Source: a virus
Virus record (IMG/VR): IMGVR_UViG_3300042691_007870
Location: 1 to 31,521 of that record
Strand: one strand, 5' to 3'
DNA length: 31,521 nucleotides
Shown: positions 1,267-16,069 of the stretch, in pieces
How positions within the stretch are numbered: position 1 is the first letter of the stretch
Layout of the letters: each line of letters opens with the position of its first letter
Notes under the pieces: model-generated
Database searches by the model: none
What the model was told of the DNA's origin: nothing
The model's input: the letters and a program-made list of their open reading frames with translations, nothing else
Program-made: the position numbers and the translations under genes

Positions 1267-1501
1267 CTCCCTCTCCTATGAACTCTAATGAGAAAATATC
1301 ATGATCAGGAATATCTGGATTCAACCATTCACTAAATTCGGATTGAATCGCCTGGGCATCTTCAAAGTTTGTTTCACAGAGAGTATGAATACGATCAACT
1401 GCCCAATCATGTGTTTGTCTTAGGGTGGTTTCAAGAGTAACCATAGTATTTAGAGTTTTAAGTCCTTTATCATAGCACCACATAAAAATATTTTCAAGCA
1501 T
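1238..1501 (-). CDS. Hypothetical acidic protein, 87 aa
   Basis: A short acidic ORF ending in SLEFIGEGDDTRPSQFF that overlaps the start of the C39-like peptidase gene by 29 nt, so it is probably co-transcribed with it. The start is uncertain. ATG codons at 1501, 1483 and 1444 are in frame and none has a strong ribosome binding site. The ATG at 1483-1481 lies at the end of the sequence GAAAATATTTTTATG, one arm of a perfect inverted repeat whose other arm holds the start of the plus-strand endonuclease gene. A TATAAT-like box on this strand lies at 1515-1510. No family recognised. Confidence 0.5.
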   Translation of the reverse strand: MLENIFMWCYDKGLKTLNTMVTLETTLRQTHDWAVDRIHTLCETNFEDAQAIQSEFSEWLNPDIPDHDIFSLEFIGEGDDTRPSQFF

Positions 1502-1535
1502 AAATAAAAATTATAAGGTAGAAAATATTTTTATG
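1481..1535 (+). repeat. Perfect 15-bp inverted repeat enclosing a late promoter and the endonuclease start codon
   Basis: Arms are 1481-1495 and 1521-1535, with a 25-nt loop at 1496-1520. The right arm reads GAAAATATTTTTATG and its last three bases are the start codon of the plus-strand endonuclease. The loop holds CATAAATA (1499-1506). RNA entering from upstream could fold and bury the ATG; RNA started at the late promoter would lack the left arm. The stem is almost all A/U, so its stability is only moderate. Confidence 0.8.
1499..1506 (+). promoter_or_regulatory. T4-type late promoter (CATAAATA) for the plus-strand endonuclease
   Basis: CATAAATA fits the NATAAATA late consensus of T4-like cyanophages and lies 26 nt before the ATG at 1533. 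It points along the plus strand, so it would serve only the endonuclease. Expected initiation is near 1512, downstream of the left arm of the inverted repeat. Confidence 0.6.
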
Positions 1536-2234
1536 GAATGGAAATATAACGAAGAAGATTTTATTGAAGTTCCGAAAGATATGGAGGGTTTTGTATATCT
1601 AATTACAAACTTAGCAAATGAAAAAAAGTATGTGGGTAAAAAACACTTTTGGACTCGGCAAAAGGATAGAAAAACTGGAAGAAGAAAAAAGAAAGAAAGT
1701 GATTGGAGAAACTATTATGGGTCTTGCGACGAACTAAAAGAAGATATCAAATTATTAGGAAAAGAAAATTTTTTAAGAGAAATACTTTATCTTTGTCCTC
1801 ATAAAAAATCTATGTCTTATTATGAAACTTATGAGCAATTTAAAAGAGATGTGTTAATGACTGACGAATATTATAATACAAATATTGAAGGTAGATTTTT
1901 TGTTAGTGAGAGATCTGGAATATATGAAGTCGTTTTAAGAAACGATAAGTATAGAGAAGATAAAAGAAAATTTATGACTGGCGATAACAATCCAGCAAAA
2001 AGACCAGAAGTTAGACAAAAATTAAGTGAAATGCTTTCTGGTGAGGGAAATCCTATGTATGGAACAACTCTCACCAAAGAACATAAAGAAAAACTTTTAA
2101 ATTCCAGAAGACGTGAAGTTACTGATGGATTTAAAAGTTGGTTAAGTGTAAATGAATGGATGAAAGATAATAAAGCAGGATATCAAAAATACAAACAACA
2201 ATTAAAAGACGGTTTGATTTGGATAAAAAATTAG
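1533..2234 (+). CDS. GIY-YIG homing endonuclease with NUMOD3-like motifs, opposite to all neighbours
   Basis: A 233-residue protein and the only convincing plus-strand gene here. The GIY-YIG signature is VYL at 21-23 and YVG at 33-35, within GFVYLITN...KKYVGKK. Conserved downstream segments (SDWRNYYGSCDELK, then NTNIEGRFF) match the Seg-like endonucleases of T4-like marine phages. Two NUMOD3-type DNA-binding repeats follow (NNPAKRPEVRQKLSEM and GNPMYGTTLTKEHKEK), then a C-terminal basic segment. These enzymes nick or cut a recipient genome to spread their own gene. It lies between the lysis cassette and a truncated relative (2231-2341). A late promoter and a start-codon hairpin precede it. 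AAGG at 1515-1518 is the only ribosome-binding-like sequence and is rather far from the ATG. Confidence 0.85.
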   Translation: MEWKYNEEDFIEVPKDMEGFVYLITNLANEKKYVGKKHFWTRQKDRKTGRRKKKESDWRNYYGSCDELKEDIKLLGKENFLREILYLCPHKKSMSYYETYEQFKRDVLMTDEYYNTNIEGRFFVSERSGIYEVVLRNDKYREDKRKFMTGDNNPAKRPEVRQKLSEMLSGEGNPMYGTTLTKEHKEKLLNSRRREVTDGFKSWLSVNEWMKDNKAGYQKYKQQLKDGLIWIKN

Positions 2235-3479: not shown

Positions 3480-3487
3480 TATTTATA
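3480..3487 (-). promoter_or_regulatory. Late promoter (TATAAATA)
   Basis: Exact T4 late consensus on the minus strand, 27 nt before the ATG at 3452. It directly continues the T-tract of the terminator at 3511-3486, so one unit ends and the next begins within about 30 nt. Confidence 0.8.
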
Positions 3488-3511
3488 AAAAAAGAGGGTC
3501 ATTAACCCTCT
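3486..3511 (-). terminator. Intrinsic terminator overlapping the end of the 47-aa gene
   Basis: AGAGGGT and ACCCTCT form a perfect 7-bp stem around a 5-nt loop that contains part of the stop codon of the gene at 3502-3645. A T-tract follows on the minus strand and merges into the TATAAATA late promoter. Confidence 0.85.
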
Positions 3512-3645
3512 ACCCATTCTTTACGGTAATCATAGTCTCCAAATAGAAACTCATCACACTCTGCTGCTTCTTTATAAGCATTCAATAGTTCTTGTTCACA
3601 CCATTCATCATAATTGGAATCATCTTTGAGTATTTTAGGGTTCAT
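3502..3645 (-). CDS. Small acidic hypothetical protein, 47 aa
   Basis: Begins MNPKILKDDSNYDEWCEQEL and ends RKEWVEG. The start is fixed by a TAATG overlap with the stop of the upstream gene, which suggests translational coupling. The stop codon lies in the loop of an intrinsic terminator. The product is acidic and rich in aromatic residues, with two cysteines and no membrane segment. The clean coupling and fitting terminator argue that it is real. I do not recognise a family. Confidence 0.6.
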   Translation of the reverse strand: MNPKILKDDSNYDEWCEQELLNAYKEAAECDEFLFGDYDYRKEWVEG

Positions 3646-4061
3646 TAGATTATATTACAACCTGGTTCTAACAATTTATACTCTTTTCCATTATAAGCAA
3701 CTCCGGAGTAATATTCTGTAGCATTAATAACAGAAAACATATTATATTCTCTTCCATCATCAAATGGTGTTATATCTATCAGATCCCCATAGGTATTCTT
3801 CCAGATACTATGATATATTGCACATCCGTAAGTTTCATTATCAACATCTGTAATTAGATAATATCCACTTATTTTTTCTCCACCATAAGTTCTCACATAA
3901 TGATTTACATTATTGTGGCAGTTTGCCCCAGCACATAATGGTTTAGATACTACAGGAACTTTTAACAAAGTGCTTGAGAACTTACAATACTCTTGAAGTT
4001 TAACTACACACTCATCTTCTGGTAATGATATTCTAAACTTTCTCTTCAATACTCCATCCAT
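3645..4061 (-). CDS. Conserved-looking hypothetical protein with Cys/His/Asn cluster
   Basis: About 138 residues from the ATG at 4061-4059; an ATG at 4085 and a GTG at 4100 are alternatives. The chosen start limits overlap with the endonuclease gene to 29 nt and has AAGAAGAA just upstream. Notable segments are PLCAGANCHNNVNHYV, then YLITDVDNETYGCAIYHSIW and DLIDITPFDDGR. The mix of Cys, His, Asp and aromatic residues could be an enzyme active site or metal site, but I do not recognise the fold. Its 5' end is overlapped by the homing endonuclease gene, so that element may have moved in next to it and altered its start or its expression. Confidence 0.6.
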   Translation of the reverse strand: MDGVLKRKFRISLPEDECVVKLQEYCKFSSTLLKVPVVSKPLCAGANCHNNVNHYVRTYGGEKISGYYLITDVDNETYGCAIYHSIWKNTYGDLIDITPFDDGREYNMFSVINATEYYSGVAYNGKEYKLLEPGCNII

Positions 4062-4650
4062 TTCTTCTTGGTCCTTTTCTGTCATACTTAATTGCGGCAC
4101 TCATAGTTGCATATGAAATATTTTGAGACTTACAAAATTCCTTTAATGCTCCAGTAATAATATACTCTTTATTTTCTGGAGAAACAATCCTCCAAGTTTT
4201 AGAGTTTGGATTATCCTTACCAAATTTTGGTGTTCTATTTTGACTTATTTTATTTCTTATCTCTTGTGATAATTTAACACCATATCTTGGATTGTTCTTA
4301 CCAGCAACCTTTTCACTTATTCTTTTCTTTGCTTCTTCACTATGTTTTCTTCCACTAAAACCCTTTGTCTTTTGCCCTCCAGGTTTTCCTTCTCCACCAA
4401 GATTTTGATTTAATAAAACTCCACCATCACATTCTCTTTTCCAGAGTGCTATATGCTTGATTTCAAGTTCTATTGCTTCTTCTTTAGTTAATCCAGATTT
4501 TACAATCCACCTTCTTTGTCTTGGTGGTAATAGGTTTGCTCCATTACTTCTCAAATGCTTTGCGTTTATTCTTCTTGGTTTTCCATAACCAACATAGAAG
4601 GGAGAACCGAAGTCCTCCCTTAAGTAATAATAAAGAATATAGTTATTCAT
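4033..4650 (-). CDS. GIY-YIG homing endonuclease behind nrdB
   Basis: A 205-residue protein. The GIY-YIG core is YILYYYL at 4-10 and FYVGYG at 18-23, followed by a basic PRRI; the catalytic-type acidic helix is EEAIELEIKHIALW, then NQNLGGEG. NUMOD3-type repeats follow (GRKHSEEAKKRISEKVAG and NNPRYGVKLSQEIRNKIS), and a C-terminal helix-turn-helix-like segment (ALKEFCKSQNISYATMSAAI). It belongs to the Seg-like free-standing endonucleases of T4-like phages and is unlike the plus-strand endonuclease outside the core. It lies directly after nrdB, a frequent target locus. A late promoter in the loop of a perfect inverted repeat lies just before the ATG (4650-4648). No Shine-Dalgarno sequence is at normal distance. 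The 3' end overlaps the next gene. Confidence 0.88.
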   Translation of the reverse strand: MNNYILYYYLREDFGSPFYVGYGKPRRINAKHLRSNGANLLPPRQRRWIVKSGLTKEEAIELEIKHIALWKRECDGGVLLNQNLGGEGKPGGQKTKGFSGRKHSEEAKKRISEKVAGKNNPRYGVKLSQEIRNKISQNRTPKFGKDNPNSKTWRIVSPENKEYIITGALKEFCKSQNISYATMSAAIKYDRKGPRRNGWSIEEKV

Positions 4651-4652
4651 TT

Positions 4653-4665
4653 TAAGACTGAACTT
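4653..4665. repeat. 13-nt copy of an nrdB 3' segment, copy A
   Basis: TAAGACTGAACTT on the plus strand, identical to 4772-4784 inside the nrdB coding region. It overlaps the downstream arm of the hairpin before the endonuclease gene. Confidence 0.8.
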
Positions 4666-4674
4666 ACCTATTAC

Positions 4675-4682
4675 TATTTATA
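4675..4682 (-). promoter_or_regulatory. Late promoter (TATAAATA) for the nrdB-adjacent endonuclease
   Basis: Exact late consensus on the minus strand, 24 nt before the ATG at 4650, inside the loop of the inverted repeat 4651-4705. Confidence 0.85.
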
Positions 4683-4710
4683 TAATACACTATTTCAGTC
4701 TTAAAGTCAA

Positions 4711-5895
4711 TTAAAGTTGAAATCCAGAAAAAGTGTCTTTAGTAACATCTTGTTTGATACCACCCACAATATAAGACTGAACTTGTGTTTGTTGGGGTGC
4801 AACTTGAAGACCTTTTGAAGAAATCCAATGCTCAGTCCAAGGAAGTGGATTGTTCTTTGCAGGAATATCATAAAGTGGTTTCAGTCCAATTGCTTTCATT
4901 CTACGGTTTGCGATCCATTCGACATACTGCTGTAACAGTTTGTCATTCAGACCAATCATTGAACCATCTTTGAACAGATACTCTGCCCAAAGTTTTTCTT
5001 GATTCACAGCATTTTCAAAGGTCTTGTAGAACCACTGTTCCTCTTCTTTGGAGATCTGTGCCATTTCTGGATCATCACCCTCCTTCCACTTGTTCAGAAT
5101 GTTTTGAGTGATAACCAGATGCTGGTTCTCATCACGAGCAATCAGTGAGATGATCTTTGCACTTCCCTCCATAAGCTTGAGTTCGCCAAACGCAAAACTA
5201 CAAGCGAAGCTGACGTAAAAGCGAATACCTTCAAGAATATTAACGTTTGCAACTGCTCTGAATAGTTTTCTCTTGAGTTCATACCTTGCTTCTCGGGCGT
5301 AGGGTACTTGTTCCAAAGCGTGGACCCACTCACTTGAGTTGTCATACTGATGAGCACTATTGATGAAATCATTGTATGCCTGAGTCACACTCACGGCACG
5401 TTCCATAATGCGGTCTTCTTTGAGAATCGTATCAAAAACTTCAGATGGGTCTGAATAAACATTCTTGATGATATAAGTGTATGAACGGGAATGGATCATC
5501 TCCATAAACTCCCATACCTTCATACACGCTTCCAGTTCAGGAAGGGAACAGTATGGAGCAAATGCCATACCAGGACCACGACCCTGAACTGAATCCAGCA
5601 TCACCTGATATTTCAGGTTGCTGGTGAAAATGTGCTTTTGCTCTGGGCGTAGCATATGATAATCGCTACGGTCTTTTTGAAGAGATACTTCTTCGGGTCT
5701 CCAGAAATAACCCAATTGCTGTGTTGTTAGTTTATCGAAGATTGGATACTTGTAAGAATCGTATCTCTGTATTCCTAGTGGTTGACCAAAAAACATTGGT
5801 TGCTTTTTGGTGTCTACTTCATTGGAGTTGAAAACGGTCATTGACTCGACCACTGGTTTACCCTCCAAACCTGTTTTAAATCTTACAAGACTCAC
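4711..5895 (-). CDS. nrdB: Class Ia ribonucleotide reductase, beta (radical) subunit
   Basis: The NrdB subunit holds the di-iron/tyrosyl radical that NrdA uses to reduce NDPs to dNDPs. The iron ligands and radical site match E. coli NrdB: Asp101 (LDSVQGR), Glu132 and His135 (EMIHSRSY), Tyr139, Glu222, Glu256 and His259 (ARDENQHL). The C-terminal tail DTFSGFQL is the peptide that docks on NrdA. It is 394 residues, close to family length. The start is a GTG with GGAGG about 7 nt upstream, inside the end of nrdA, giving a 20-nt overlap. An internal ATG at 5841 (MTVFNSN) aligns with the T4 NrdB start and is the alternative. A 13-nt piece of its 3' coding region (4784-4772) recurs before the endonuclease gene downstream. 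Confidence 0.97.
   Translation of the reverse strand: MSLVRFKTGLEGKPVVESMTVFNSNEVDTKKQPMFFGQPLGIQRYDSYKYPIFDKLTTQQLGYFWRPEEVSLQKDRSDYHMLRPEQKHIFTSNLKYQVMLDSVQGRGPGMAFAPYCSLPELEACMKVWEFMEMIHSRSYTYIIKNVYSDPSEVFDTILKEDRIMERAVSVTQAYNDFINSAHQYDNSSEWVHALEQVPYAREARYELKRKLFRAVANVNILEGIRFYVSFACSFAFGELKLMEGSAKIISLIARDENQHLVITQNILNKWKEGDDPEMAQISKEEEQWFYKTFENAVNQEKLWAEYLFKDGSMIGLNDKLLQQYVEWIANRRMKAIGLKPLYDIPAKNNPLPWTEHWISSKGLQVAPQQTQVQSYIVGGIKQDVTKDTFSGFQL
4772..4784. repeat. 13-nt segment of nrdB repeated downstream, copy B
   Basis: TAAGACTGAACTT on the plus strand; on the coding strand it encodes VQSY in the NrdB tail. The exact match lies at 4653-4665, and a 10-nt inverted match is at 4694-4703. Confidence 0.8.
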
Positions 5896-15918: not shown

Positions 15919-15991
15919 TGCCCGTGAGAAGATTTGAACTTCCACTGTATGGATTCTAAGTCCACCCTCTCTACCGTTGGAGTACACGGGC
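15919..15991 (-). tRNA. tRNA with anticodon UAG (nominally Leu), short variable loop
   Basis: 73 nt folding as a cloverleaf on the minus strand: acceptor GCCCGTG/CACGGGC, D stem CTC/GAG, anticodon stem GTGGA/TCCAT with loop CTTAGAA (anticodon TAG), T stem GGAAG/CTTCT with loop TTCAAAT, discriminator A73. No CCA is encoded. The variable loop is only 5 nt (ACAGT), although bacterial Leu tRNAs have a long variable arm. The D stem has only three clear pairs. By codon rules it would read CUA. Confidence 0.85.
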
Positions 15992-15996
15992 ATAAG

Positions 15997-16069
15997 TGGA
16001 GAATAGGAGACTCGAACTCCTGACAGCCTGCTTGCAAAGCAGGTGCTCTACCAACTGAGCTAATTCCCC
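15997..16069 (-). tRNA. tRNA-Ala (UGC)
   Basis: A 73-nt regular cloverleaf on the minus strand: acceptor GGGGAAT/ATTCTCC, D arm GCTC/GAGC, anticodon arm CCTGC/GCAGG with loop TTTGCAA (anticodon TGC), T arm AGGAG/CTCCT with TTCGAGT, discriminator A73, no encoded CCA. It lies 5 nt before the second tRNA. Its first ten bases overlap the end of the upstream membrane protein gene. Confidence 0.96.

Follow-up and report, generated by a model that had tools for sequence, protein, structure and literature searches.

The gene directly downstream of nrdB in a cyanophage genome fragment encodes a GIY-YIG endonuclease, and its start codon adjoins a perfect inverted repeat that encloses an exact T4-type late promoter motif. 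This leader is probably an RNA switch that acts in cis, of the T4 I-TevI/mobE type, and that travels with a freestanding endonuclease of the homing type in an insert after nrdB. The T4-like layout, a start-occluding stem with a promoter in its loop, had been proposed by an earlier reading of the DNA without database searches (the sequence-only reading), and it is strongly supported by conservation, covariation, and comparison with empty sites.

Insertion of the endonuclease gene downstream of nrdB

The window (the whole 31,521-nucleotide stretch that was analysed, a virus record of 31.5 kb) is a fragment of a T4-like cyanobacterial phage, and the closest DNA matches of its nrdB are from Synechococcus phages. 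The genes nrdA, nrdB, and the GIY-YIG/NUMOD3 endonuclease gene follow one another consecutively on the minus strand. The features of this region are as follows.

8173-5876, minus strand: nrdA
4711..5895, minus strand: nrdB, the upstream gene (Pfam Ribonuc_red_sm, 1.4e-54)
3645..4710, minus strand: inserted segment with the hairpin, the endonuclease gene, and a further ORF, by comparison with empty-site relatives such as L102
4682..4710, minus strand: predicted sigma70-like promoter TTGACT-17-TATTAT, overlapping a hairpin arm and the late motif
4694..4705, minus strand: 5' arm of the putative start-occluding hairpin, TTTAAGACTGAA (from sequence, folding, and covariation)
4675..4682, minus strand: TATAAATA, an exact match to the T4-type late promoter motif, within the loop of the hairpin, with a predicted 5' end at about 4669
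4651..4662, minus strand: 3' arm, TTCAGTCTTAAA, adjoining the start codon (from sequence, folding, and covariation)
4033..4650, minus strand: gene for the freestanding GIY-YIG/NUMOD3 endonuclease of 205 aa, with its start codon at 4650 (Pfam NUMOD3, 1.3e-11)

Both the GIY-YIG catalytic residues and the NUMOD3 DNA-binding motif are present in the endonuclease, and Y7, Y19, G21, R27, E63, and N81, residues of the GIY-YIG type, are invariant among 20 homologues. The protein may be active in homing. The insert also holds an ORF of about 150 aa (3645-4100, minus strand), which lies 3' of the endonuclease gene and overlaps its end; it has no Pfam match and is possibly a passenger gene. Further downstream, an intrinsic terminator at 3480-3511 (minus strand) is immediately followed by TATAAATA; many relatives show the same arrangement after nrdB.

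Systematic screening of IMG/VR for the endonuclease gene revealed 80 loci, with 59-100% identity over the best segment. The gene lies directly 3' of nrdB in all of them, about 59-71 nt past the aligned nrdB end. A set of 80 nrdB loci showed presence/absence polymorphism at this one site: the endonuclease gene is absent from 77, whose nrdB 3' ends are empty, and the hairpin after nrdB is missing from every one of them, while the three loci with the gene all have it. In L102, which has an empty site, the stop of nrdB and the start of a small gene overlap; the counterpart of this small gene in the window begins at 3645, and the hairpin, the endonuclease gene, and the further ORF are therefore recognized as an insert. 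The hairpin belongs to this insert, because the 77 loci without the gene are also without the hairpin.

The occurrence of the hairpin only with the insert argues against a role in the nrdB mRNA itself. A stem directly 3' of nrdB in 80 of 80 loci could protect or process the 3' end of the nrdAB mRNA, as an exonuclease barrier or as an RNase III site, instead of controlling the endonuclease, and RNase III could cut a long perfect RNA stem. This explanation is unlikely. Besides being missing from the 77 empty loci, the stem lacks a U-tract and does not appear among the predicted terminators, it always adjoins the endonuclease AUG, and the same layout stands before endonucleases located downstream of other genes.

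The hairpin and the predicted translational block

The arms at 4705-4694 and 4662-4651 are perfectly complementary over 12 bp and enclose a loop of 31 nt, and the ATG (4650-4648) is immediately 3' of the 3' arm. The sequence check reproduced every coordinate that the sequence-only reading had given for the arms, the loop, TATAAATA at 4682-4675, and the adjoining ATG. The stem spans -12 to -1 relative to the AUG and stops there, and its 3' arm is within any 30S footprint. The hairpin matches no Rfam family above the gathering score in a search of the window, in which the only matches were two tRNAs; two adjacent tRNA genes are located at 15919-16069 (minus strand).

A repeat of this kind could arise by chance, and AT-rich DNA does contain two-copy repeats. 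In a Markov-random control of 20 windows, however, only one of 23,966 ATGs had an abutting perfect repeat of at least 12 bp at hairpin distance, an expectation of about 1 per 24,000 ATGs. Repeats this long occur in the real window at two real gene starts, with 12 bp at 4650 and 15 bp at 1533, and these are exactly the starts of its two endonuclease genes. A chance repeat without function has a negligible probability and is refuted by the comparative data, that is, by conservation and covariation across the 80 relatives.

The predicted fold of the RNA from 4720 to 4600 has an energy of -31.3 kcal/mol, compared with a shuffle mean of -19.0 (z -3.8; none of 200 shuffles was as good), and the hairpin with the 12-bp arms is present in both the MFE and the centroid structures. 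Folding with and without the 5' arm, the check suggested by the sequence-only reading, gave the outcome it anticipated: the stem dominates the 4720-4600 RNA and cannot form in the RNA starting at 4669. The median cost of opening the start region among 44 leaders is 14.8 kcal/mol for read-through RNA versus 4.7 for late RNA. The corresponding values are 10.1 and 4.8 kcal/mol for the window, whose read-through cost is lower than in most relatives, and T4 I-TevI shows the expected difference as well (14.4 versus 5.2 kcal/mol).

No Shine-Dalgarno (SD) sequence at normal distance was found in the window leader, as had been noticed earlier, or in any leader of the nrdB family. The stem covers the AUG-proximal region, and the I-TevI-like variant with a consensus SD inside the stem was not seen in this family.

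It is proposed that read-through RNA from nrdAB has both arms and would form a stem of at least 12 bp ending at the AUG, which would block 30S binding. Since the stem ends at the AUG and the leaders are without SD, it is the start-proximal part of the 30S site that would be blocked. RNA initiated at the loop promoter would begin 3' of the 5' arm, would be free of the stem, and could be translated from the SD-less AU-rich leader. The idea that the freed arm aids initiation found no support: the freed arm has no SD in any relative, and initiation would therefore need that SD-less AU-rich leader. The endonuclease would thus be uncoupled from the host operon and expressed solely from a promoter of its own, which is most likely the late promoter.

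Conservation of the stem as RNA

The exact motif TATAAATA is present in 78 of the 80 relatives, 21-27 nt upstream of the ATG. The longest paired run among the 80 has a median of 12 bp and a maximum of 19, and clearly interrupted or weakened stems were found only in L007 and L009. According to the sequence-only reading, the switch would be refuted if close relatives with the gene had lost the repeat; essentially all 80 keep it.

Across 30 distinct leaders, pairing in the 12-bp stem reaches 95.5% and five pairs are doubly changed, against a shuffle mean of 1.5, and a 17-bp version of the stem includes nine against 4.5. None of 500 shuffles matched the value of either version; such counts overstate significance for related sequences, and slid registers, which preserve the relatedness, also fail. 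Among imperfect stem pairs, G-U outnumbers A-C by 16:9 in the nrdB family and by 24:6 in another group of endonucleases, and the scoring makes no distinction between these two kinds of pair. Because G-U is in excess of A-C inside the stems, the comparison points to selection on the sense-strand RNA rather than on a DNA palindrome.

Within nrdB, a copy of the hairpin 3' arm with 16 of 18 identical positions lies at 4784-4767 (minus strand), and in this phage it is a possible competitor for the 5' arm.

The inverted repeat could instead serve chiefly as a DNA operator by which the endonuclease autorepresses its own promoter, as I-TevI does. The promoter is flanked by the arms, and the arm copy in nrdB recalls the similarity between the operator and the homing site of I-TevI (PMC2988022). 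In relatives that have diverged but retain this arm, however, identity of the nrdB copy is at the random level, and the operator/homing-site reading of the copy was rejected for this reason. The G-U excess also speaks against an operator, as does the finding that homologous nucleases have unrelated arms yet keep the pairing, so that an operator as the main function is improbable.

Predicted promoters in the loop and the timing of expression

The switch described above was first read as silencing the endonuclease early and allowing it late. This timing is less well supported than the layout itself. The predicted sigma70-like promoter overlaps the late motif, and its predicted start at about 4675 is downstream of the 5' arm, so RNA from it would escape the hairpin too. 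Late-only timing is no more than likely, because this overlapping and conserved promoter could yield hairpin-free RNA early.

With the same hairpin, the loop promoter might be a dual early/late one, by which the gene is separated from nrdAB and not delayed to the late phase. Of 43 distinct leaders, 27 (about 60%) match the element TTGACT/A-17-TATTAT at 10 or 11 of its 12 positions, compared with 4.4% of shuffled leaders, although related sequences may share it by descent. Overlapping early and late promoters have been proposed for middle genes of cyanomyoviruses, and the late motif NATAAATA has been published for the cyanomyovirus S-PM2 (PMC2984593). On the other hand, the element is missing in about one third of the leaders, which retain the hairpin and TATAAATA, and it was found in only one of 36 other devices of the genome scan described below. 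Dual use of the promoter is thus possible but doubtful. Expression of the nrdB-adjacent endonuclease late only is likely, and its translation only from its own promoter is the better supported of these two statements.

A second device in the window

The other endonuclease gene of the window is preceded by a similar device.

1481..1495, plus strand: CATAAAAATATTTTC, 5' arm of the hairpin that precedes the SegE-like endonuclease gene
1499..1506, plus strand: CATAAATA, resembling a late promoter, in the loop of this hairpin
1521..1535, plus strand: 3' arm of the second device, GAAAATATTTTTATG, including the start codon at 1533-1535
1533..2234, plus strand: second freestanding endonuclease, SegE-type GIY-YIG (Pfam SegE_GIY-YIG, 1.5e-37)

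Close relatives keep the second hairpin (1481-1535) with one compensatory change, and a distant subgroup is without it. The orientation of the SegE-like endonuclease gene opposes all neighbouring genes.

Distribution of the layout among cyanophages

Distant endonucleases at other sites, from MA01, S-CREM2, S-B68, and B23, show the same layout with unrelated arms, and the same holds for most B23-type loci in IMG/VR. RNA duplex scoring over a long upstream stretch was too permissive for gene-wide controls and clipped the 5' arm of the window; a helix score centred on the motif and compared with permuted arms took its place. The genome scan covered S-B68, B23, G001, G003, positions 1-215,000 of the 240,842 of S-SRM01, the window, and T4. 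It yielded 371 late-motif sites before ORFs, and for 26 of them the helix score is at least 28, at a permuted-arm rate of 0.09%; some of these rows are one gene with two motifs. The known leaders of T4 do not reach high scores with an ungapped helix, and T4 is therefore no yardstick for the sensitivity of the scan.

When 276 distinct non-T4 proteins were considered, 25 of the 41 in the GIY-YIG cluster score at least 24. Only six outside this cluster reach that score: two look like chance, and four are nuclease-like proteins of the HNH, endonuclease VII, or a similar type, an assignment made in part by visual inspection of the sequence. The layout is almost absent before other late-motif genes. 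An intrinsic terminator lies between the 5' arm and the late motif in 20 of 36 leaders with the layout.

Endonuclease VII-family proteins with hairpin leaders were observed at L376:9172-9579, L377:5806-6258, and L325:2767-3345, and in the L376 leader the start codon is within a 17-bp perfect stem. T4 gene 49, which encodes endonuclease VII, is a known hairpin-regulated gene (PMC3014915).

Up to about 10 endonuclease copies per genome, each with its own arms, are found in S-SRM01 (L370-L380) and G003 (L354-L360); S-SRM01, a cultured phage, has about nine copies of the layout. Self-pairing of the arms has a median score of 29.75, and cross-pairing with other copies in the same genome has a median of 10, with 4 of 256 at 22 or above.

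These comparisons suggest, with moderate confidence, that one portable cyanophage leader design serves at least three unrelated types of freestanding homing endonuclease. Its elements would be outer arms concealing the start, a loop that carries a promoter, and in many cases a terminator nested in the same loop, giving two-layer insulation. It would be reused up to about 10 times per genome with arms differing at almost every copy, so that each RNA pairs only with itself.

Comparison with known systems

Hairpin-gated leaders have been published for T4 e, soc, 49, I-TevI, I-TevII, I-TevIII, and segB, and for Aeh1 mobE (PMC3014915, PMC2988022). Hairpin gating is defined as SD and/or AUG in a helix (PMC3014915), and the nrdB-family stem is of this kind through its AUG region, with no SD. 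In T4 I-TevI, I-TevII, and I-TevIII, likewise, a stem hides the start in upstream-initiated RNA and the late promoter is sited so that late RNA is without the 5' arm (PMC2988022, PMC3014915). These genes differ in lying within a group I intron and in sequestering a consensus SD, whereas the endonuclease of the window is freestanding after nrdB, has no SD, and has a stem that adjoins the AUG. Aeromonas phage Aeh1 mobE and T4 segB are freestanding homing endonucleases with the same promoter/hairpin arrangement, and mobE also adjoins ribonucleotide reductase genes (PMC2988022), although it is of the HNH type and interrupts nrdA. Both represent one case each, while the nrdB-adjacent endonuclease represents a family with covariation. 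The T4 e, soc, and 49 leaders follow the same principle in late phage genes (PMC3014915), but these genes have phage functions and are not mobile nucleases.

The leaders of S-SRM01, B23, S-B68, and related cyanophages are similar in organization, with arms around TATAAATA, the 3' arm at the start codon, and freestanding endonucleases. They differ from the nrdB family in their unrelated arm sequences; their loop usually has an intrinsic terminator, and the 3' arm often includes an SD-like AGAG. No account of the layout in cyanophages was found in the searched literature, a limited search that is weak evidence of novelty. The mechanism is already known (I-TevI, mobE, e, soc), and the breadth in cyanophages and the nested terminator appear to be undescribed.

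Biological meaning

A regulation known from few genes of the T4 group would thereby extend to many mobile nucleases of cyanophages. The device appears to follow the mobile-nuclease lifestyle and not one protein family, and this broader pattern, one device shared by several unrelated mobile nucleases, is the more interesting result, although based on sequence. The layout offers a simple sequence signature with which such genes may be found and their timing and source RNA predicted, and the cultured phage S-SRM01 makes the idea testable in the laboratory. The presence of a nested terminator suggests that unscheduled synthesis of the nuclease is strongly selected against, which bears on why homing endonucleases are so tightly regulated.
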